A stretch of DNA of 64,000 nucleotides. It comes from Sulfuricurvum sp. PD_MW2. Lineage in GTDB: Bacteria; Campylobacterota; Campylobacteria; Campylobacterales; Sulfurimonadaceae. The notes under the pieces are model-generated. The model saw only the letters and a list, made by a program, of their open reading frames with translations, made no database searches and was not told where the DNA came from. The DNA lies in assembly GCF_002633015.1 (NCBI RefSeq), contig NZ_NSIU01000001.1, forward strand, positions 186,001 through 250,000, given 5' to 3'. Positions 1,628 through 38,877 of this stretch are shown here, one piece after another; position 1 is the first letter of the stretch; every line of letters starts with the position of its first letter. The translations under genes and the position numbers were made by a program.

Positions 1628-3394
1628 TTAGCAGCCGCGAGCACCTTTTTTCGGGCATCCGCAGTCATAATCCATAATTTTGACATTGCTATTACCACTT
1701 ATATTAACATTTTTTTGCCGACGAATGTATGCAGAGGTTACATCATATACCGGACGGGTCAGCTGTTCTTTGAGATTGCTTCCCGCATTTTGGAGATTGC
1801 CGCCCCATGAAGATACTTTGTATACTTTCGTATCACTCAAAGGTTTCCCGCCTACCATGATATTCGTAATCCGTTTACCGCTCGGAGCACCGATACGAAT
1901 TTCATAGGTCACACCGCCCAAACGGCTCATATCTCCACCTTGTTGATAAAGCGGGTTGGCGTTGAATACATTATCCGCAATGTCTTCCAACAATGTTCGG
2001 ATATGCATTCCTGTCAATTCAAACGTATACACGTTCGGATAGGTGATAGCCGTCATGTCATAAACGTGGTCCATGGTGATCGAATCACCTTCGAGAACCG
2101 TCGTTCCCCAACGATATCCTGGAGTAAACGAAATATCCGAGTCCATAGTGTCGATGATCGAATCATTGATCAGCTGATCGAACGTCGAATGGAACGTATC
2201 ACGTTTGTACAAGGTATTTTTGGTAATACCTAATACTTCGGAGAGTTCCGAATCATACGGTGAATATAACTCTTTGACAAGTTTTTCACCCTCTGGATCA
2301 GCCGGAATCAGGTTTGATGCCACCGGGATGAGTTTATACTCATACCCCTTGACTTTATGGTTTTGGATATCGATATCGAGTCGTCCGATATATTTACCGT
2401 GACTTCCCGCAATGACGATCACCGTACCGTTGATGACTGTCGGCTGCGGTGATGGATCATGGGTGTGACCGCTCAGGATGAAATCGATCCCTTTAACTTG
2501 ACGTGCAACCTCTTGGTCAACGCTGAACCCATCATGCGAGAGGACAACGACACAGTCCACTTTCTCTTCCTTACGAAGTTTATCCACATATGTTTGAAGT
2601 GTGTCAAGTCGTAAACCGAAACTCCACCCTTGTGTAAACTCTTTCGGGTTTGCCGTAGAGGTAAACGGAAACGCTTGACCGATAATACCGATCTTAGCTC
2701 CGCCTCTCTCCATAATCGTATACGGTTCAAAAATCGACTCTTCGAAATCATCCGCAAACGAATCATCTCCGATAACGTTTTGAGCGATAAATTTCGCATT
2801 TAACATCTCGATGAGCTCTTTGACCCGTTTTTTACCGTACGTGAATTCCCAGTGACCCACCATTACGTCGACACCGAGATAATTTTGAGCTTTGACAATC
2901 GCTTCACCGCCCGTTTTAAGCGCGACACCTGTTCCCTGCCACGTATCGCCGGAATCTAGAAGCAATACATTGTCAGCTCCACGCTCTTTTTTGATATGGT
3001 TGATGAGGGTTTTCATGTGTGAAATTCCCCCCATTTTCCCGAATTTATGAGCAAGTGCATCAAAATTCATAAACGTATCGAAATACGCATCAAGCGTTTT
3101 ACCTTTCATGCCGTAATGCTTTAAAAACGACTCACCGCACAAAAAGCCCGGTGTCCCCGTAAGATTCGGAGCGGAAATCAATGTTGAAGGTTCACGCCAG
3201 TAGAGCGGTTTGAGATGTGCATGCATATCACAGATATGAAGCAACGTCACATTGCCGCGTGCGTTAAATCCATAAATATCTTTTAGTCCTACCTCATCAA
3301 TACGCTTTGCGGCACTGCCGGCCGATGCCAAAGATGGCACACCAAGTCCGAGTGCGGCAGCAATATGAAAAAAGTCTCTTCGTGATAAATCCAT
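1628..3394 (-). CDS. soxB: SoxB thiosulfohydrolase
   Basis: SoxB hydrolyses sulfate from the cysteine-S-sulfonate carried on SoxYZ in the periplasm; it is a dimanganese enzyme of the metallophosphatase/5'-nucleotidase superfamily. Seen here: a twin-arginine signal (SRRDFF, residues 4-9) with a hydrophobic stretch, the metal-ligand motifs DMHAH (56-60), SGDTWQG (148-154), SHDG (286-289) and GHTHD (309-313), and the C-terminal nucleotidase-like domain. 588 residues is normal. The start has a good ribosome site (AAGGGGGAG). It follows soxA by about 10 bp. Odd: the C-terminus is a short Cys-rich tail (CGCPKKGARGC). Confidence 0.97.
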   Translation of the reverse strand: MDLSRRDFFHIAAALGLGVPSLASAGSAAKRIDEVGLKDIYGFNARGNVTLLHICDMHAHLKPLYWREPSTLISAPNLTGTPGFLCGESFLKHYGMKGKTLDAYFDTFMNFDALAHKFGKMGGISHMKTLINHIKKERGADNVLLLDSGDTWQGTGVALKTGGEAIVKAQNYLGVDVMVGHWEFTYGKKRVKELIEMLNAKFIAQNVIGDDSFADDFEESIFEPYTIMERGGAKIGIIGQAFPFTSTANPKEFTQGWSFGLRLDTLQTYVDKLRKEEKVDCVVVLSHDGFSVDQEVARQVKGIDFILSGHTHDPSPQPTVINGTVIVIAGSHGKYIGRLDIDIQNHKVKGYEYKLIPVASNLIPADPEGEKLVKELYSPYDSELSEVLGITKNTLYKRDTFHSTFDQLINDSIIDTMDSDISFTPGYRWGTTVLEGDSITMDHVYDMTAITYPNVYTFELTGMHIRTLLEDIADNVFNANPLYQQGGDMSRLGGVTYEIRIGAPSGKRITNIMVGGKPLSDTKVYKVSSWGGNLQNAGSNLKEQLTRPVYDVTSAYIRRQKNVNISGNSNVKIMDYDCGCPKKGARGC

Positions 3395-31716: not shown

Positions 31717-32313
31717 TTAGCGACACACCACGTCGTTATCGAGTAACGATTCCTCTTTTTTTGCCTGAGCGCATTGTGCTTTGCTCATCACCGATGCGGA
31801 AAACTGAGTCCGCCATAACAGCGCGTTTTTCATGTTAGCACTGCGCAGATCGGTTCGGACAAATTTTGCATCCCCCAGTTCTGCACCGGTAAAATCGGTT
31901 TTCATGAGATTGGCTTCAGTGAAATTGGCTTTCCAGCTTTTCGTTCCGCGAAAATCGGCGTGAGCGAGATTGCTCTGTTCCAAATGGGTCCCTTTGAAAT
32001 TGGCACTTTTGGCATGAATGTAGGTGAGATCGGAGCGCTGCATCGTCCCTTTCCAAAAAAGTGCGCCCCGAGCATTCGCACCGCTGAGATTGCAATCACT
32101 CAAATCACCCATCTCGAAAATGCTCTCATGCAAATCGGCACCACTCAGATTACTCCCATGAAAATCCGCCCCGCTAAAATCGATTTTGCTTAGATTCGCC
32201 CCCCGAAGGTCACATCCGATACACTCTTTCTCTTCCAATGCTTTTTTCAAATGCGCTGCATCGTAAGCACTCAACGTCACCCCTAAAGCGGCTGCCAAGA
32301 AAAATGCTCTCAT
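31717..32313 (-). CDS. Exported pentapeptide-repeat protein
   Basis: 198 residues: signal peptide (about 1-16), a 'CIGCDLRGANL' segment, then about 20 A(D/N)Lxx/F-type pentapeptide repeats forming a right-handed quadrilateral beta-helix (about 35-165), and a short tail with two cysteines. The signal peptide places it in the periplasm or outer membrane, unlike the DNA-gyrase-mimicking cytoplasmic members. It overlaps the thioredoxin-like gene by 4 bp and precedes batA. Function unknown. Confidence 0.85.
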   Translation of the reverse strand: MRAFFLAAALGVTLSAYDAAHLKKALEEKECIGCDLRGANLSKIDFSGADFHGSNLSGADLHESIFEMGDLSDCNLSGANARGALFWKGTMQRSDLTYIHAKSANFKGTHLEQSNLAHADFRGTKSWKANFTEANLMKTDFTGAELGDAKFVRTDLRSANMKNALLWRTQFSASVMSKAQCAQAKKEESLLDNDVVCR

Positions 32314-32699
32314 TTGATCCCTCGGATACGGTGTAACTCTTTTAAGAACGGTTGAGCCCGTTTGCTCCCTACCATCGTCTCTTTTTTATTCCCTGCTTTG
32401 TCGATAAAAAACATCGTCGGAATCCCGAAAAAATCGTATCCATCAGGTAGTTTGCTTTTGTGAACATTCTTCTCGATCACGACAAAGTTTTTACTCAAAT
32501 ACGGTTCCACCATTTTGTCATGAAACACTTTTTGTTTCATGTAGGCACATTCGGGACAATCTTCGGTCGTATAGATCATCAAAATCAGCTTGTTGTCACC
32601 CCCCATCGACATCACCGCCGATTTAAATGCTTCATCATTTTGAATCGTTCCGGCATGCAATCCGACTACCAGCAATATCCCGATCAACCACGCTCTCAT
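32310..32699 (-). CDS. Periplasmic thioredoxin-like (SoxW-type) protein
   Basis: 129 residues with a short signal peptide, a thioredoxin fold, redox motif CPEC in 'YTTEDCPECAYMKQ', and the cis-proline loop 'GIPTMFFID'. Probably reduces or oxidises periplasmic thiols, or rescues persulfidated proteins. First gene of a run into the Bat operon. It resembles the protein at 34669-35061 (CKMC motif, same size and layout), suggesting a duplicated function. TAAGGA lies upstream of the ATG. Confidence 0.85.
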   Translation of the reverse strand: MRAWLIGILLVVGLHAGTIQNDEAFKSAVMSMGGDNKLILMIYTTEDCPECAYMKQKVFHDKMVEPYLSKNFVVIEKNVHKSKLPDGYDFFGIPTMFFIDKAGNKKETMVGSKRAQPFLKELHRIRGIK

Positions 32700-32755: not shown

Positions 32756-33133
32756 TTATTTTAATGCCAACTTGTCATCAAAAAAAAGTTCCCTATGATC
32801 ATCAAAATTTTTAACTAATGTGGTAAAGCACCCTGCCATCTCTCTAATCGTCTCAATATTGGGTTCGATATAGACCTTATTCCCTTTTTTCTCGACCGTG
32901 ATGATCTTCGCTTCTTTGAGCTCTTTGATATGGGCAGAAATCGTCGGAAGGGAAAAATTGAAATGTTCGGCCACGGTACTGACGCATGTTGCGATCGGAT
33001 TCACTTCGACACCAGGCTGTTTTTTATCCAATGAACAAGTATATCCGCCGGTAAAAACGTTTTTAAAAATCAAAAAGCGGGTCTCATTACTGAGAGCTTT
33101 AAAAATTTTGAGCTTTTGTTCCATATCAAGCAT
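32756..33133 (-). CDS. ArsR-family winged-helix repressor with a cysteine-bearing insertion
   Basis: 125 residues. ArsR fold: 'LKIFKALSNETRFLIFKNV', helix-turn-helix 'HFNFSLPTISAHIKELKEAKII', wing 'VEKKGNKVYIEPN', and a C-terminal dimer helix. Between helix 2 and the HTH is an insertion holding Cys33 and Cys50; Cys102 is in the last helix. The classic metal site (ELCVCD) is absent, so a thiol/persulfide or redox signal is plausible given the divergent sulfur-relay genes. The start is favoured by AAGG 7 bp upstream; an ATG three codons in is possible. Confidence 0.85.
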   Translation of the reverse strand: MLDMEQKLKIFKALSNETRFLIFKNVFTGGYTCSLDKKQPGVEVNPIATCVSTVAEHFNFSLPTISAHIKELKEAKIITVEKKGNKVYIEPNIETIREMAGCFTTLVKNFDDHRELFFDDKLALK

Positions 33134-33173
33134 TCATACACCTTACTCCGTACTGCTGCACGGTTGATGTGAA

Positions 33174-33179
33174 ATTATA
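33174..33179 (-). promoter_or_regulatory. Candidate -10 element of the arsR-like gene
   Basis: TATAAT on the minus strand, about 40 bp upstream of the regulator's start codon. The matching -35 region overlaps the AATTAGCTAATT palindrome, so the regulator could repress its own gene from that site. Confidence 0.5.
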
Positions 33180-33200
33180 ACACGATGTTATTTATTAGGA

Positions 33201-33212
33201 AATTAGCTAATT
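33201..33212. promoter_or_regulatory. Palindromic operator candidate, divergent arsR/dsrE region
   Basis: AATTAGCTAATT is a perfect 12-bp palindrome in the 150-bp region between the arsR-like gene and the DsrE-like gene. Its central 10 bp, ATTAGCTAAT, recur just downstream of the rhodanese promoter (33793-33802). Two copies within 600 bp, both at promoters of sulfur-relay genes, suggest the binding site of the adjacent regulator. Confidence 0.6.
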
Positions 33213-33283
33213 AGGCGTTTATATTATTTTTACACTCTTTTTTTACAATGCAATTCTAAATAACTCATCACAAAGGATACCGC

Positions 33284-33745
33284 ATGAAAAAATGGCTTCT
33301 CATTCTCGCTCTCACAACCGCTCTGTTTGCCGAAGAGGGGATCAAAAAAGTGGTCTTCGATCTCAAAACGGGTAGTATCGAAACATTCGAGAAAAAAGTG
33401 CTACAGGGGATCGCATTTCATAAAACTCATTACGAAGGAAAACTCGAAAAACTCGATGCTACGGTCGTCATTCACGGTGATGCGTATAAGTTTTTCGTCA
33501 AAGATCTCACAAATTCTCCCTACAAAAATGATAAAAAGCTAAGTACCGTGCACGATCAGTTAAGTAAACGGATTACAGCGATGTCATCGACGTATGAAGT
33601 GGAGTTTTTAATGTGCGAAGCGACAATGCGCACCCTCAAAATCGATAAAAGCAACATCTATGATTTCGTCAAACTCACCCCGAATTCAACCATCGGACTG
33701 ATCGATAAACAACAAGAAGGATATTCATACATCCCGATTCATTAA
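33284..33745 (+). CDS. Exported DsrE-like protein
   Basis: 153 residues: Sec signal peptide (MKKWLLILALTTALFA), then a DsrE/DsrF-type alpha/beta domain with 'KKVVFDLKTG', 'ATVVIHGDAYKFFV' and 'VEFLMCEATMRTLKI', containing one conserved-looking cysteine near residue 110. Periplasmic DsrE-like proteins are thought to bind or move sulfane sulfur. It is divergent from the arsR-like regulator; AAAGGA precedes the ATG. A strong promoter follows before the next gene. Confidence 0.8.
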   Translation: MKKWLLILALTTALFAEEGIKKVVFDLKTGSIETFEKKVLQGIAFHKTHYEGKLEKLDATVVIHGDAYKFFVKDLTNSPYKNDKKLSTVHDQLSKRITAMSSTYEVEFLMCEATMRTLKIDKSNIYDFVKLTPNSTIGLIDKQQEGYSYIPIH

Positions 33746-33748
33746 TCC

Positions 33749-33777
33749 TTGACAATTAAATGTGATTATTCTATGAT
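33749..33777 (+). promoter_or_regulatory. Sigma-70 promoter of the rhodanese operon
   Basis: Exact TTGACA (33749-33754), 17-bp spacer, TATGAT (33772-33777). The predicted start of transcription is near 33784, placing the ATTAGCTAAT palindrome about 10 bp downstream of it, a position where a bound repressor would block initiation. Confidence 0.75.
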
Positions 33778-33792
33778 ACAATTATTTAGTTA

Positions 33793-33802
33793 ATTAGCTA
33801 AT
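33793..33802. promoter_or_regulatory. Palindromic operator candidate, rhodanese operon
   Basis: ATTAGCTAAT, identical to the core of the site at 33201-33212, sits between the promoter and the start codon. It is flanked by related half-sites: TTAGTTAA immediately to the left and ATGCTAA to the right, so two overlapping dimer sites are possible. Confidence 0.6.
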
Positions 33803-33832
33803 ATGCTAAGTATATCCAAAGGAGTATCTACA

Positions 33833-34294
33833 ATGAAATCACATATCGTTACGATCATCGCAGGATTGATAATCGGTTCATCACTAATGGGTGGGCAGGC
33901 TGAGTCTGAAAAACTGATTGCCGAGGCAAAAGCACAAGCAGGCGAAATGGTACCGAAACAGCTCAAAGAGATGTTAGATGCTGAAAAGAAAGTTATCGTC
34001 ATGGATGTACGCGAGGAAAACCAGCGGGCTGAGGGGGAAATCTACGCTCCCAATACGATGGCGATCACACGCGGAAATCTCGAATTTGAAGTTCTCAATA
34101 AAATCAAAGACAAAAATACTGTGATTGTCACCTATTGCCGTGGCGGGAGCCGTGGAGCATTAGCCGCACAAACTCTCAAAAAACTGGGATTTGTTAATGC
34201 GACAAACCTCAAAGGAGGTCTTAAAGGATGGGCGGAAGAAGGTTACCCTATCGAGACCGGCTTAGGGGTTACATTACTTTCTAAAGAGCAATAA
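33833..34294 (+). CDS. Exported single-domain rhodanese
   Basis: 153-residue sulfurtransferase. I use the ATG preceded by AAAGGAG rather than the ATG 30 bp upstream, which lies in the operator. A signal peptide (MKSHIVTIIAGLIIGSSLMGGQA) is followed by a rhodanese domain with 'VIVMDVREENQRAEG' and the active-site loop Y-C-R-G-G-S-R. The cysteine would carry a persulfide. It is followed after about 10 bp by a DsrE-like gene. Confidence 0.9.
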   Translation: MKSHIVTIIAGLIIGSSLMGGQAESEKLIAEAKAQAGEMVPKQLKEMLDAEKKVIVMDVREENQRAEGEIYAPNTMAITRGNLEFEVLNKIKDKNTVIVTYCRGGSRGALAAQTLKKLGFVNATNLKGGLKGWAEEGYPIETGLGVTLLSKEQ

Positions 34295-34304
34295 GGAGAT
34301 CATC

Positions 34305-34658
34305 ATGACAACCATAATTTTGAATCATCAACCTTACGACGGTTCTGATGTGACGTGGAACGCTCTGCGTCTGCTTAAAACCCTCCATAAAAGCGGCGAA
34401 AAAGTGAATCTTTTCTTGATGAACGACGCCGTCGATTTGGCTCGTGATATCACGAAAAAGCCCGAAAGTTACGAGTACGATCTCGTCGATATGGTCAAAA
34501 AACTCTATAATGATGGTGTCGCGGTGCAGGCGTGCAGTACGTGCAATGCCCGCTGCGGTCTTTTTAAAAATACCCCTTATTTCGACGAATCAATTTCATC
34601 TACTATGCAGATCCTAGCTGATTGGGTTATTCAAAGCGATAAAGTTTTAACATTCTAA
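34305..34658 (+). CDS. Cytoplasmic DsrE-family sulfur-relay protein
   Basis: 117 residues, no signal peptide. DsrE fold ('TTIILNHQPYDGSDVTWNAL', 'VNLFLMNDAVDLA') with a cysteine cluster in 'VQACSTCNARCGLF' (three Cys), like the conserved DsrE cysteine region. Likely accepts or passes persulfide in the cytosol. TAAGGAG precedes the ATG. It sits between the rhodanese and the thioredoxin-like gene. Confidence 0.85.
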   Translation: MTTIILNHQPYDGSDVTWNALRLLKTLHKSGEKVNLFLMNDAVDLARDITKKPESYEYDLVDMVKKLYNDGVAVQACSTCNARCGLFKNTPYFDESISSTMQILADWVIQSDKVLTF

Positions 34659-34668
34659 AGGAGCCATT

Positions 34669-35061
34669 ATGAAAAAAATTATCTTAGCCCTCTTGCTCAT
34701 CAGCAGTTCACTTTTTGCCGAACTCGATTGGGCACCTTCGTATGAGCAAGGATTGGCAAAAGCCAAAAAAGAGCATAAAATCCTCATGGTCATGTTTTCA
34801 TCCAAAACATGCAAAATGTGTAACTACATGAAAAAAACCGTCTATGAAAATGACGATGTCTCCGAATACATCAAAACCTTTTTTATACCCATTGAAATCG
34901 ATATTTCAGAACATCCCGACAAATACGGATATCAGGTGTTTGGCACACCGACCTATTATTTTCTGGATGCAAACGGAAAGCAAATAGGGCGTATGATGGT
35001 AGGAGGGGCATCTCCAGAAGGATTCTTACAAAAACTCAAAGATGTGCAACAAGGAAAATAA
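34669..35061 (+). CDS. Periplasmic thioredoxin-like protein (CKMC)
   Basis: 130 residues: signal peptide (to about 17), thioredoxin fold, redox motif C-K-M-C in 'SSKTCKMCNYMKK', cis-Pro in 'GTPTYYFLD'. It is close in size and layout to the protein at 32310-32699. Ribosome site AAGGAG. Likely keeps sulfur carriers reduced in the periplasm, by context. Confidence 0.86.
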   Translation: MKKIILALLLISSSLFAELDWAPSYEQGLAKAKKEHKILMVMFSSKTCKMCNYMKKTVYENDDVSEYIKTFFIPIEIDISEHPDKYGYQVFGTPTYYFLDANGKQIGRMMVGGASPEGFLQKLKDVQQGK

Positions 35062-35064
35062 AGG

Positions 35065-36306
35065 ATGATTAAACATTCACTTTTAGTATCGATACTCCTT
35101 ACGACCGTCTGTTCAGGAGAGAGTTTGGAGAATATTTTCACCCAGGGACAAGTGAGCGGAAACCTCCGCGGATTTTGGTACGACGGGAATCGTGAACTTC
35201 GCATCGACCGAACCGCACTCACCGTTGGGGGAATTTTGAGCTATAAAACGGCTCCGTATGAGGGAGTTAGCGGTGGAGTTTCACTCTTTTCGAGCAACGG
35301 CATTACCTCCCTTACCCACATGAGCGAATCAGGACAGACCCATAACCTCAATCTTGATGGCAGTTCCATCAACACTCTGGGCGAAGCGTATCTGCAATAC
35401 AGCGCGCATGATACTTTGATCAAATACGGTCGTCAGAGGCTTGATCTCCCTCTGGCAAATGATTATTACAATCGGATGCTCCCCAACAGTTTCGAAGCAC
35501 TCAGTATCGAGAATCGTTCTCTCTCGAACATGATATTCAAAGGAGCCTACATTACGGGATGGAAATACAAAGGCTCCGATACTTTTGTCTCACCAACCTA
35601 TACGTACGGAGTAGATCGCGATATCGCCGTGCTCGGAGCGATCTTTTCCCCTATACCTGCATATAAAATCGAACTTTATGACACCTATGTGCGTGATGTG
35701 ATGAATGCTCCATATCTACAAATGATCCATAACGAGCTATGGAAATCTTCCGAGGGGACAACCGTCTCGGGAGCATTGCAATATTTGAATGAACGCAATA
35801 TCGGTAACAAAGTCGCAGGAAATATCGACACCTATCTACTGGGATTGCGCGGATCCGTGAGCAAAGGTGAATGGAGTCTGAGCGCTCTGTACACCCGGAT
35901 AGGAGATCAAAGTTTGCTCGGGAGCGGAGGACGATACGAAAAAATGGGATGGGGAGGATTTATCACCTACACCGATCTGCAAATCGACGGAGAGAGTGAA
36001 AATGCCCATGCACAAGCGTACGGAGGTGTACTCACCTATCGTCCGGCATCGACATTTGAGATCTCTGGCAAATACATGCACATCGATCAAAGCGATTCGG
36101 TGCAATCCGATCCACATTCTCTGACACTCAATCCGCGCCCAGATTCGGACGAATACAATATCGATGCCACCTATCAACCGACCAAAGCGTTTCGATTACG
36201 CACCCGTCTTGCCCTAATCGATTATGTAAGCGGAAGTACCACCCTTTACAAAAACAAAGCCTATGATGAGACAAACGTTCGGATTATCGCTGATTATCTC
36301 TTCTAA
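35065..36306 (+). CDS. OprD-like outer-membrane porin ending the sulfur-relay operon
   Basis: 413 residues, signal peptide (to about 18), alternating beta-strand pattern, C-terminal '...IIADYLF'. Shared motifs with the porin downstream of soxB: 'FT.G.V.G.LR', 'GEAYL.Y', 'KYGRQ.LDLP', 'NSFEALSIENRSL' and 'YITG'. It follows the thioredoxin-like gene by 3 bp, so it belongs to the same operon. Substrate unknown. Confidence 0.85.
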   Translation: MIKHSLLVSILLTTVCSGESLENIFTQGQVSGNLRGFWYDGNRELRIDRTALTVGGILSYKTAPYEGVSGGVSLFSSNGITSLTHMSESGQTHNLNLDGSSINTLGEAYLQYSAHDTLIKYGRQRLDLPLANDYYNRMLPNSFEALSIENRSLSNMIFKGAYITGWKYKGSDTFVSPTYTYGVDRDIAVLGAIFSPIPAYKIELYDTYVRDVMNAPYLQMIHNELWKSSEGTTVSGALQYLNERNIGNKVAGNIDTYLLGLRGSVSKGEWSLSALYTRIGDQSLLGSGGRYEKMGWGGFITYTDLQIDGESENAHAQAYGGVLTYRPASTFEISGKYMHIDQSDSVQSDPHSLTLNPRPDSDEYNIDATYQPTKAFRLRTRLALIDYVSGSTTLYKNKAYDETNVRIIADYLF

Positions 36307-36400: not shown

Positions 36401-36476
36401 GTCTCGTTAGCTCAGCCGGTAGAGCATCTCACTTTTAATGAGGGGGTCGATGGTTCGAATCCATCACGGGACACCA
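36401..36476 (+). tRNA. tRNA-Lys (anticodon TTT)
   Basis: 76 nt including encoded CCA. Acceptor GTCTCGT pairs with ACGGGAC; anticodon stem TCTCA/TGAGG with loop CTTTTAA (anticodon TTT); T-arm GATGG-TTCGAAT-CCATC. All four arms form. Confidence 0.96.
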
Positions 36477-36494
36477 CTTATCAGCCACTTACGT

Positions 36495-36569
36495 GGCCCC
36501 ATCATCTAATGGTTAGGATTCCAGATTTTCATTCTGGCCATAGGGGTTCGAATCCCCTTGGGGTCACCA
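36495..36569 (+). tRNA. tRNA-Glu (anticodon TTC)
   Basis: 75 nt including CCA. Acceptor GGCCCCA pairs with TGGGGTC (one G-T); anticodon stem CCAGA/TCTGG with loop TTTTCAT (anticodon TTC); T-arm AGGGG-TTCGAAT-CCCCT. Lies 18 nt after tRNA-Lys and is presumably co-transcribed. Confidence 0.96.
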
Positions 36570-36810: not shown

Positions 36811-37275
36811 TTGAGACAGTTGGGTACAGAACAAAAGGTTCTTTTGATTTTGGCGTCTCTTTTTGTTGTCGGATGGTTTATTGGATCAGGCAGTGTCACC
36901 TTCTATGAAGCGAAGGGGCTTTCATACATGAGCAATTCTCCGGAAGCGTGTATAAATTGTCATTCAATGAATCAAGTGTATGACAAATGGTCTCATGGCG
37001 GGCACCGTCATGTAGCCACCTGTAACGATTGCCATACACCCCATAATTTTATTGGGAAATGGACGACAAAAGCGATCAATGGTTTTAACCACAGCAAGGC
37101 CTTTACTTTGGACAAAGAGCTCCCTATAGTCTTTGAAGCTAAAGAATCGACCAAAAAGATAGCACAGGATAATTGTATCCGCTGTCATGATTCAATCGCA
37201 TCTCATCCTGCAGGACTTGATAATAAGCAAGAACCGTTACGGTGTTTGTCTTGTCATCCAAATCCTGCACATTAA
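36811..37275 (+). CDS. nrfH: NrfH, membrane tetrahaem quinol dehydrogenase of nitrite reductase
   Basis: Transfers electrons from menaquinol to NrfA. 154 residues: N-terminal membrane anchor (about 8-28) and four haem motifs, CINCH (47-51), CNDCH (71-75), CIRCH (122-126) and CLSCH (145-149). 'CHSM' after the first gives the family's methionine next to haem 1. The TTG start has AAAGGAA upstream; no suitable in-frame ATG is closer. Followed by nrfA after 18 bp. Confidence 0.94.
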   Translation: MRQLGTEQKVLLILASLFVVGWFIGSGSVTFYEAKGLSYMSNSPEACINCHSMNQVYDKWSHGGHRHVATCNDCHTPHNFIGKWTTKAINGFNHSKAFTLDKELPIVFEAKESTKKIAQDNCIRCHDSIASHPAGLDNKQEPLRCLSCHPNPAH

Positions 37276-37293
37276 CTTTTAGGAGGAAAATCT

Positions 37294-38877
37294 ATGGTGC
37301 CTAAAAAATGGCTTATTGCAACACTGTGCGCGGGTATACTCCTCTCTGCCGGTACATTTTTGTTGTATAAAGATATCAATATCAAACAAGCAGAAGGGGA
37401 AAAACCTCTTTTCATGGTGACAAAAATCGATGATAATAACGTCGATTTTGCTGCATGGGGACAAAATTTCCCAACGCAACTTGAAATGTATGAGCAAACC
37501 AAGGACATGAACCTAACGACCGATTTTGGCGGAAGTAATCCTTACAGCAAACTCAATCGCTATCCTCAGTTAACGCAAATGTGGGCCGGATATCCGTTTT
37601 CGGCTGATTTTAACGAAGAACGCGGACACTTTTACACTCAAATCGATCAGTTTGAAACCAAACGCAATAACAAAGAGTATCTCAATGCACATGGATTTCC
37701 TGCTTTCAAAGGACAGCCGGGTGCTTGTATGAACTGTCATAGCGGCTGGGCTCCAAAACTGATCAAAGAGATGGGATGGGAAAAATTCAATTCAACTCCG
37801 TATTGGGATATTGTCAAAAAACTTGAAAAAGATCATGGCGATTCAATACACGGTTCAAAAATGGGATCAACGTGTGCAGACTGTCACAATCCAAAAGATA
37901 TGTCGCTTCGTGTCACACGTCAAGCCTATATCAATGCAATGGTAACACGCGGATATGAAGCCGATTCAGAAAAAGGTATAAAGGCCAGCCGTCAAGAGAT
38001 GCGCTCTCACGTTTGCCAACAATGTCACGTTGAATACTATTTCCAAGGAGACAAAAAAGTCTTGACGTTCCCATGGACAGAGTGGAAAAAAGGTGAACCT
38101 CTCCGTATCGAGAATATCGAAGCGTATTACGAAAAGAACAAAAAAGATTTCCCTCAAGACTGGACTCATAAAGAGACAAAAGCACCTATGCTCAAAATGC
38201 AACATCCGGAAACCGAAATGTATTCCAGCAGTGTACATGCTCGCAGCGGTGTAGGTTGTGCCGATTGTCATATGGCCTATGAACGTGTCGGAAGCCAAAA
38301 AGTATCTAATCACAAAATCGCATCACCGATGAACAATCTGAATAATGCATGCCGCAGTTGTCACTCAGGTCAAACCGAAGAACAGCTAAAAGAAAAAGTA
38401 CGCTATATTCAGACAACAACAGCAAACGGACTTCGAAATGCAGAAAATGGCATTGTTGCATTGATCACGGACATCAAAGCAGCTCGAGCATTACTCGAAA
38501 AACAACCTAAATTTGCAAGCATTTCAGATCCTGATGAAAAAACAAAAGAGATCAATAAAGTTCTCTCAAAAGCACTTGACGCACATCGCAAAGCAAGCAT
38601 GCGCTGGGATTTTGTTTTCAGTGAAAACTCAACCGGATTCCACAGTCCTCAAGAGGCGCAGCGTGTAGTTGGGCAAGCATCAGAACTTGCTCGTATCGGA
38701 CAAATCGAAGTACAAAATGCACTCAAGCCTTTTGGATTAACGATTACACCGACTATCAAAGCAACCATGCCACCGGCACCGCAACCGACCGATCTTAAAA
38801 ACATTGTCGGCAATGTAGCTCCGAAAAGTGTTGTAAATATTGACAAGACATACGATTTCTCAAATCCGTCAAAATAA
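37294..38877 (+). CDS. nrfA: NrfA, pentahaem ammonia-forming cytochrome c nitrite reductase
   Basis: Periplasmic reduction of nitrite to ammonium with six electrons. 527 residues: a signal anchor (about 5-24), then haem motifs CMNCH (145-149), CADCH (194-198), CQQCH (241-245), CADCH (322-326) and CRSCH (353-357). The first, catalytic, haem is bound by CxxCH instead of the CxxCK of E. coli, as I recall for Campylobacter NrfA. Active-site residues are offered by 'CHVEYYF' (Tyr) and 'KMQHPE' (His304). It ends at a strong terminator. Confidence 0.96.
   Translation: MVPKKWLIATLCAGILLSAGTFLLYKDINIKQAEGEKPLFMVTKIDDNNVDFAAWGQNFPTQLEMYEQTKDMNLTTDFGGSNPYSKLNRYPQLTQMWAGYPFSADFNEERGHFYTQIDQFETKRNNKEYLNAHGFPAFKGQPGACMNCHSGWAPKLIKEMGWEKFNSTPYWDIVKKLEKDHGDSIHGSKMGSTCADCHNPKDMSLRVTRQAYINAMVTRGYEADSEKGIKASRQEMRSHVCQQCHVEYYFQGDKKVLTFPWTEWKKGEPLRIENIEAYYEKNKKDFPQDWTHKETKAPMLKMQHPETEMYSSSVHARSGVGCADCHMAYERVGSQKVSNHKIASPMNNLNNACRSCHSGQTEEQLKEKVRYIQTTTANGLRNAENGIVALITDIKAARALLEKQPKFASISDPDEKTKEINKVLSKALDAHRKASMRWDFVFSENSTGFHSPQEAQRVVGQASELARIGQIEVQNALKPFGLTITPTIKATMPPAPQPTDLKNIVGNVAPKSVVNIDKTYDFSNPSK

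Follow-up and report, generated by a model that had tools for sequence, protein, structure and literature searches.

A conserved dyad and three conserved cysteines mark a candidate sulfur switch of the ArsR family in Campylobacterota

What controls the sulfur-transfer genes that diverge from an arsR-type regulator gene in Sulfuricurvum sp. PD_MW2, and what would that regulator sense? We analyzed a 64,000-nucleotide stretch of this genome (contig NZ_NSIU01000001.1, positions 186,001 to 250,000; hereafter the window, whose own numbering is used), in which the regulator gene stands back to back with genes for DsrE-family, rhodanese, thioredoxin-like and porin proteins. The genera Sulfuricurvum, Sulfurimonas and Sulfurovum rank among the major sulfur oxidisers. 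Our literature search turned up no account of a sulfur-responsive regulator in Campylobacterota and, within the limits of open-access text, no full-text description of this one. A sequence-only reading of the locus had placed an ArsR-family regulator, with a predicted operator of its own, beside a sulfur-relay operon, and the comparisons below support that reading. They suggest that the regulator and the dyad TTAG-N8-CTAA form a strong candidate for a sulfur switch of sulfur-oxidising Campylobacterota. A candidate regulator, its exact predicted operator, target genes and cysteines are thus supplied, which opens the question to direct test.

The regulator gene (32756-33133, minus strand) encodes 125 amino acids. 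Its AlphaFold (AF2) model shows an ArsR fold, with a mean predicted local distance difference test score (pLDDT) of 87, and superposes on ArsR 6j05 with a Z score of 12.7 and a root-mean-square deviation of 1.3 over 87 residues; the best solved structural matches are ArsR 6j05, SrnR, CzrA, CadC and HlyU. NF033788 matches the protein at 8e-14, its score of 51.2 falling just under the cut-off of 55. By its modelled winged-helix fold and its sequence signature, the protein is a member of the ArsR/SmtB fold superfamily. The closest regulator from a named relative, Sulfuricurvum sp. MLSB, is 97% identical.

Cysteines 33, 50 and 102, to which the earlier reading had drawn attention, are the only ones in the protein. 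In an alignment of 102 distinct homologues, Cys33 and Cys50 are kept in every sequence and Cys102 in 100, the other two having Tyr, and no further column bears a cysteine. The regulators at loci L114:6001 and L131:445 are natural Cys102-to-Tyr variants that retain Cys33, Cys50 and the upstream TTAG-N8-CTAA dyad. An insertion atypical of ArsR proteins had also been claimed, and structural alignment bore this out: model residues 3-99 and residues 20-98 of the SqrR chain form 79 pairs, which leaves about 18 extra residues here. The secondary structure of the model places this insertion of 17-18 residues between helix 2 (17-29) and helix 3 (46-55). Cys33 stands where the inserted loop begins; Cys50 belongs to helix 3 and Cys102 to helix 5.

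To define the operator by comparison, we collected 108 regulator copies from whole genomes and GTDB contigs, giving 81 non-redundant upstream regions. Every tetramer dyad with a spacer of 0-16 was counted in these regions, with dinucleotide shuffles as the control. The top dyad was TTAG-N8-CTAA, found upstream of arsR in 71 of the 81 regions, whereas the shuffles gave 0.75, an expectation that overstates the significance because homologous promoters are not independent. With a spacer of 7 the same half-sites were found in one region, and with a spacer of 9 in none. The dyad was kept whichever gene came first in the divergent direction: rhodanese (36/39), DsrE1 (9/11), DUF302 (9/9), DsrE2 (5/5), thioredoxin (3/3) or an ArsM-like methyltransferase (3/3). 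This argues against simple inheritance of a single promoter-gene block. In the relatives, its modal start lies 22 nucleotides from the arsR -10 element, which puts it over the arsR -35, and 41 nucleotides after the divergent TTGAC, just after the start of transcription. Judged from these positions, the dyad lies where a repressor would be expected.

The window shows the same arrangement. Predicted operator 1 (TTAGGAAATTAGCTAA, 33195-33210) carries TTAG-N8-CTAA with a matrix score of 23.6. The arsR promoter (33174-33202, minus strand) has its -10 element, TATAAT, at 33179-33174, and its weak -35 position, TTTCCT at 33202-33197, lies inside this operator. The second site adjoins the promoter TTGACA-N17-TATGAT, which the earlier reading had described and which we located from the sequence at 33749-33777 on the plus strand. 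Here two predicted operators, 2a (TTAGTTAATTAGCTAA, 33786-33801, about +2 to +17 of the rhodanese transcript) and 2b (TTAGCTAATATGCTAA, 33794-33809), interlock by 8 bp and together span about +2 to +25. We derived a 22-bp weight matrix (consensus TATTTAGCTAATTAGCTAAATA) from 77 sites and ran it on the window and on the related loci that we fetched; the whole genome was scanned by patterns. These three sites are the only matrix hits of at least 12 in the 64-kb window. The 1.03 Mb of related loci gave 33 further hits of at least 13, two of them being the window's own second site and many others marking the internal promoter before the rhodanese gene in further Sulfuricurvum loci. The 2.26-Mb genome holds 16 copies of TTAG-N8-CTAA. 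Three belong to these two promoters, and inspection of each of the remaining 13 placed it within an open reading frame. For the stricter pattern TTAGNNAANTNNCTAA, the genome has two matches, and this locus accounts for both.

The palindrome that had first been taken for the operator, ATTAGCTAAT, is real and stands at both promoters, but it is only part of the conserved unit. It covers one dyad half at the first site and the overlap of the interlocked dyads at the second. We rejected the 10-mer as the operator unit because most relatives keep TTAG-N8-CTAA without it. In the window it occurs exactly twice (33202-33211 and 33793-33802) with no further copy at one mismatch, a count no higher than chance would give (2.25 expected when up to one mismatch is allowed); its weight therefore rests on placement and conservation, not on number. 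A genome scan for it, named beforehand as a possible refutation, left the proposal standing, with three copies in 2.26 Mb and two of them here. The third copy (L164:598 = G000:C67:43097) is intergenic, within GTGATTATCATTAGCTAATCAC. It was rejected as an operator: it has no TTAG-N8-CTAA and sits in a GTGATTA-N8-TAATCAC repeat resembling a Fur box. A wider regulon, sought with a 16-mer pattern in 31 genomes, was also rejected. AT-rich Sulfurimonas genomes gave background hits even when they lacked the regulator, so that single distant hits allow no conclusion.

The divergent genes listed in the earlier reading are all present, on the plus strand. The first, dsrE1 (33284-33745), encodes a periplasmic DsrE-family protein with a signal peptide, as judged by inspection. 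It is followed by a rhodanese (33833-34294) with a signal-like N-terminus and the active-site loop CRGGSR. The open reading frame of the latter extends to a longer start at 33803, inside the operator, and the true start is likely the in-frame ATG at 33833, behind AAGGAG. Next come a cytoplasmic DsrE-family protein of the DsrE2 type with a CSTCNARC motif (34305-34658), an exported thioredoxin-like protein with TCKMC that resembles the C-terminus of DsbD/TsoB (34669-35061), and an outer-membrane porin of the OprD family (35065-36306; PF03573, 3e-17). Directly behind the porin gene lie tRNA-Lys(TTT) and tRNA-Glu(TTC) (36401-36569), and then nrfH and nrfA for an ammonia-forming nitrite reductase (36811-38877), the listed nrfH frame beginning with TTG. 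On the other side, 57 bp behind arsR and on the same strand, is a second thioredoxin-like gene with the motif TEDCPEC (32310-32699, minus strand), followed by a pentapeptide-repeat gene. The TEDCPEC gene and arsR may share a transcript in this genome; in L025 another gene separates the two.

Across relatives, 68 of the 81 non-redundant loci have a rhodanese, DsrE, DUF302 or SseA-like (two-domain rhodanese) gene in the divergent operon. DsbD and thioredoxin genes are frequent, and the porin occurs chiefly in Sulfuricurvum. The active-site cysteine is kept in 72 of 73 rhodaneses and in all 21 DsrE1 proteins (Cys111 in the window's copy), and the CxxCxxxC of DsrE2 in at least 46 of 48. In this analysis the regulator family was found only in Campylobacterota. 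Profile matches occurred in 28 of 397 genomes of this phylum; one of these (G435) carries only a presumed outgroup protein, leaving 27 with the true regulator. This possible outgroup is a distant Sulfuricurvum ArsR of about 30% identity (L126 and L127, in G456 and G435) that keeps only the Cys50 position; we rejected it as a family member since it lacks C33, C102, the insertion and the dyad. A paralogue clade (L029:7423, L041:8657, L084:8823) stands divergent to a fusion of a MerT-like transporter with a rhodanese, and also to a protein that joins an ArsM-like methyltransferase with another methyltransferase domain. The substrate at these loci may be mercury, arsenic or a sulfur compound.

We infer DNA binding, a repressor role and the nature of the inducer from three things: which genes the operon holds, how well the cysteines are conserved, and where the dyad overlies promoter elements. 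Our model suggests that the reduced homodimer would sit on the TTAG-N8-CTAA dyads over the arsR -35 and the divergent start region and repress both transcripts. Sulfane sulfur (polysulfide or persulfide, perhaps derived from thiosulfate or elemental sulfur, S0) would accumulate and act as the signal. The extra loop that precedes the recognition helices has Cys33 at one end and Cys50 at the other; these two would then be persulfidated or bridged, with help from Cys102 in helix 5. The inserted loop would shift and the repressor leave the DNA. Rhodanese, periplasmic and cytoplasmic DsrE, thioredoxin/DsbD and porin would consequently be made and may serve to take up, carry and reduce sulfane sulfur. 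We consider it reasonably probable that the regulator is such a Campylobacterota-specific thiol switch of the ArsR family, repressing a sulfane-sulfur relay operon and released by cysteine persulfidation or bridging. In Sulfurovum indicum, the rhodanese genes IMZ28_RS02435/02440 rise about 2.8-fold on S0 (PMC10045233); a link between these genes and the operon described here was considered but not adopted.

Several observations, besides the shared ancestry of the promoters mentioned above, weigh against this hypothesis. In open-access full text we found no expression or binding data for the regulator family. The gene soxB lies in the window at 1670-3385 (minus strand), which counts in favour of the hypothesis, but among the 27 genomes that carry the true regulator it is missing from 9; the matrix scan of the 64-kb window placed no operator of the TTAG-N8-CTAA type near sox genes. 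For both reasons we rejected the idea that the protein is a sox regulator. Operator 1 stands upstream of, and not on, the likely dsrE1 promoter, which makes the control of dsrE1 less clear. This position would also fit activation of dsrE1 by ArsR from operator 1, or a dyad that belongs to another regulator. We hold both to be highly improbable, as the dyad adjoins the regulator across 71 loci with varied first genes and is almost missing elsewhere in the window and genome. Finally, three conserved cysteines would also suit a metal or metalloid site.

Such a site could be of the trigonal As(III)/Sb(III)/Hg(II) type or a structural Zn site, in a sensor whose operon would detoxify thiol-reactive metalloids in sulfidic water. 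The fold is nearest to ArsR 6j05 and SrnR, in alignment, Cys50 matches the CVC motif of the CadC-like Lmo1102 at its first cysteine, and the paralogue clade adjoins the MerT-rhodanese and ArsM-like methyltransferase genes. The operon, however, has the gene content of sulfur transfer. The neighbours common to at least four loci, where not every cluster was annotated, yielded no ars transporter or reductase, and acr3 was found in none of the 27 regulator-positive genomes searched. An ordinary arsenic role is also less likely because arsR (CVC)-arsC-permease-arsB form a locus of their own on another contig of this genome (L124, G000:C55, about 24765). Altogether, we regard a metal sensor as unlikely. 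A general thiol-disulfide redox sensor, in which a Cys33-Cys50 or Cys102-Cys102' disulfide forms under oxidant stress and sulfur species are mere oxidants, would agree with the thioredoxin and DsbD genes of many operons and with the appearance of RexT and YodB, redox sensors with the ArsR fold or a related one, among the structural matches. The common predicted targets, however, are rhodanese and DsrE rather than peroxidases or catalases, and the distribution of the family tracks sulfur-metabolising Campylobacterota. To us, this makes a redox sensor more improbable still.

How, then, does the proposed sulfur switch compare with known systems? The TsoR model NF045707 matches the regulator at 1.4e-8, with a score of 34.6 against a curated cut-off of 115 bits, and we rejected an assignment to TsoR at this distance from the cut-off. 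The model for TsoB, a selenoprotein resembling a rhodanese/DsbD fusion, matches the rhodanese, thioredoxin and DsbD proteins of these operons far below its cut-offs, and unlike TsoB, no selenoprotein was seen in the operons. Our literature search found no experimental work on Tso. The metalloregulators CadC, ArsR and SmtB share the fold and the cysteine matching Cys50. Unlike them, the family has no CxC (C50-V-S here); its Cys33 opens an additional loop, its Cys102 belongs to helix 5, and the neighbouring operon contains no ars or metal-efflux genes. Of the marks of an ArsR-type arsenic regulator, a CVC motif in helix 3 and ars genes under control, the first is absent, and no ars transporter was found among the annotated neighbours.

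The closest parallel is with SqrR, BigR, YgaV, SoxR and sHdrR, which sense sulfane sulfur through a bridge between two conserved cysteines (PMC10451225, PMC12423496). They share with this family the ArsR fold, invariant cysteines and sulfur-transfer targets, often with a rhodanese beside the regulator (ygaVP). The operators are alike in their 8-bp spacer and differ in their half-sites, SqrR binding ATTC-N8-GAAT (PMC9774250) and this family probably TTAG-N8-CTAA. The cysteine arrangement had been called distinct from that of SqrR/BigR, and it is: C41 and C107 of SqrR align structurally with K24 (101/102) and with V107 or residue 108, and none of the 102 homologues has a cysteine at these positions, so that the two-cysteine signature of SqrR, BigR, SoxR and YgaV is missing. 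An hhalign sequence-profile alignment gapped helix 2 and paired C33 with C31 of YgaV; the structural alignment disagrees and is the one that we trust more. The BigR model NF040642 scores 14.4 against a cut-off of 155. Because the cysteine positions and the half-site differ, we did not file the family with the SqrR/BigR group. It has instead C33, C50, C102 and the 17-18-residue insertion, and it occurs in Campylobacterota, where SoxR, an ArsR-type sox repressor reported to be strictly confined to Proteobacteria, is reported absent (PMC10451225). Tentatively, and with somewhat more doubt than belief, we propose a separate sulfane-sulfur sensor class, specific to this phylum and evolved independently of SqrR/BigR. 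Its switch would be the cysteine-flanked loop C33-X16-C50, with C102 as a third thiol, and it would control a periplasmic and cytoplasmic sulfur relay in Campylobacterota of sulfidic habitats. If so, the ArsR fold acquired sulfane-sulfur sensing with a cysteine layout unlike that of the SqrR group.

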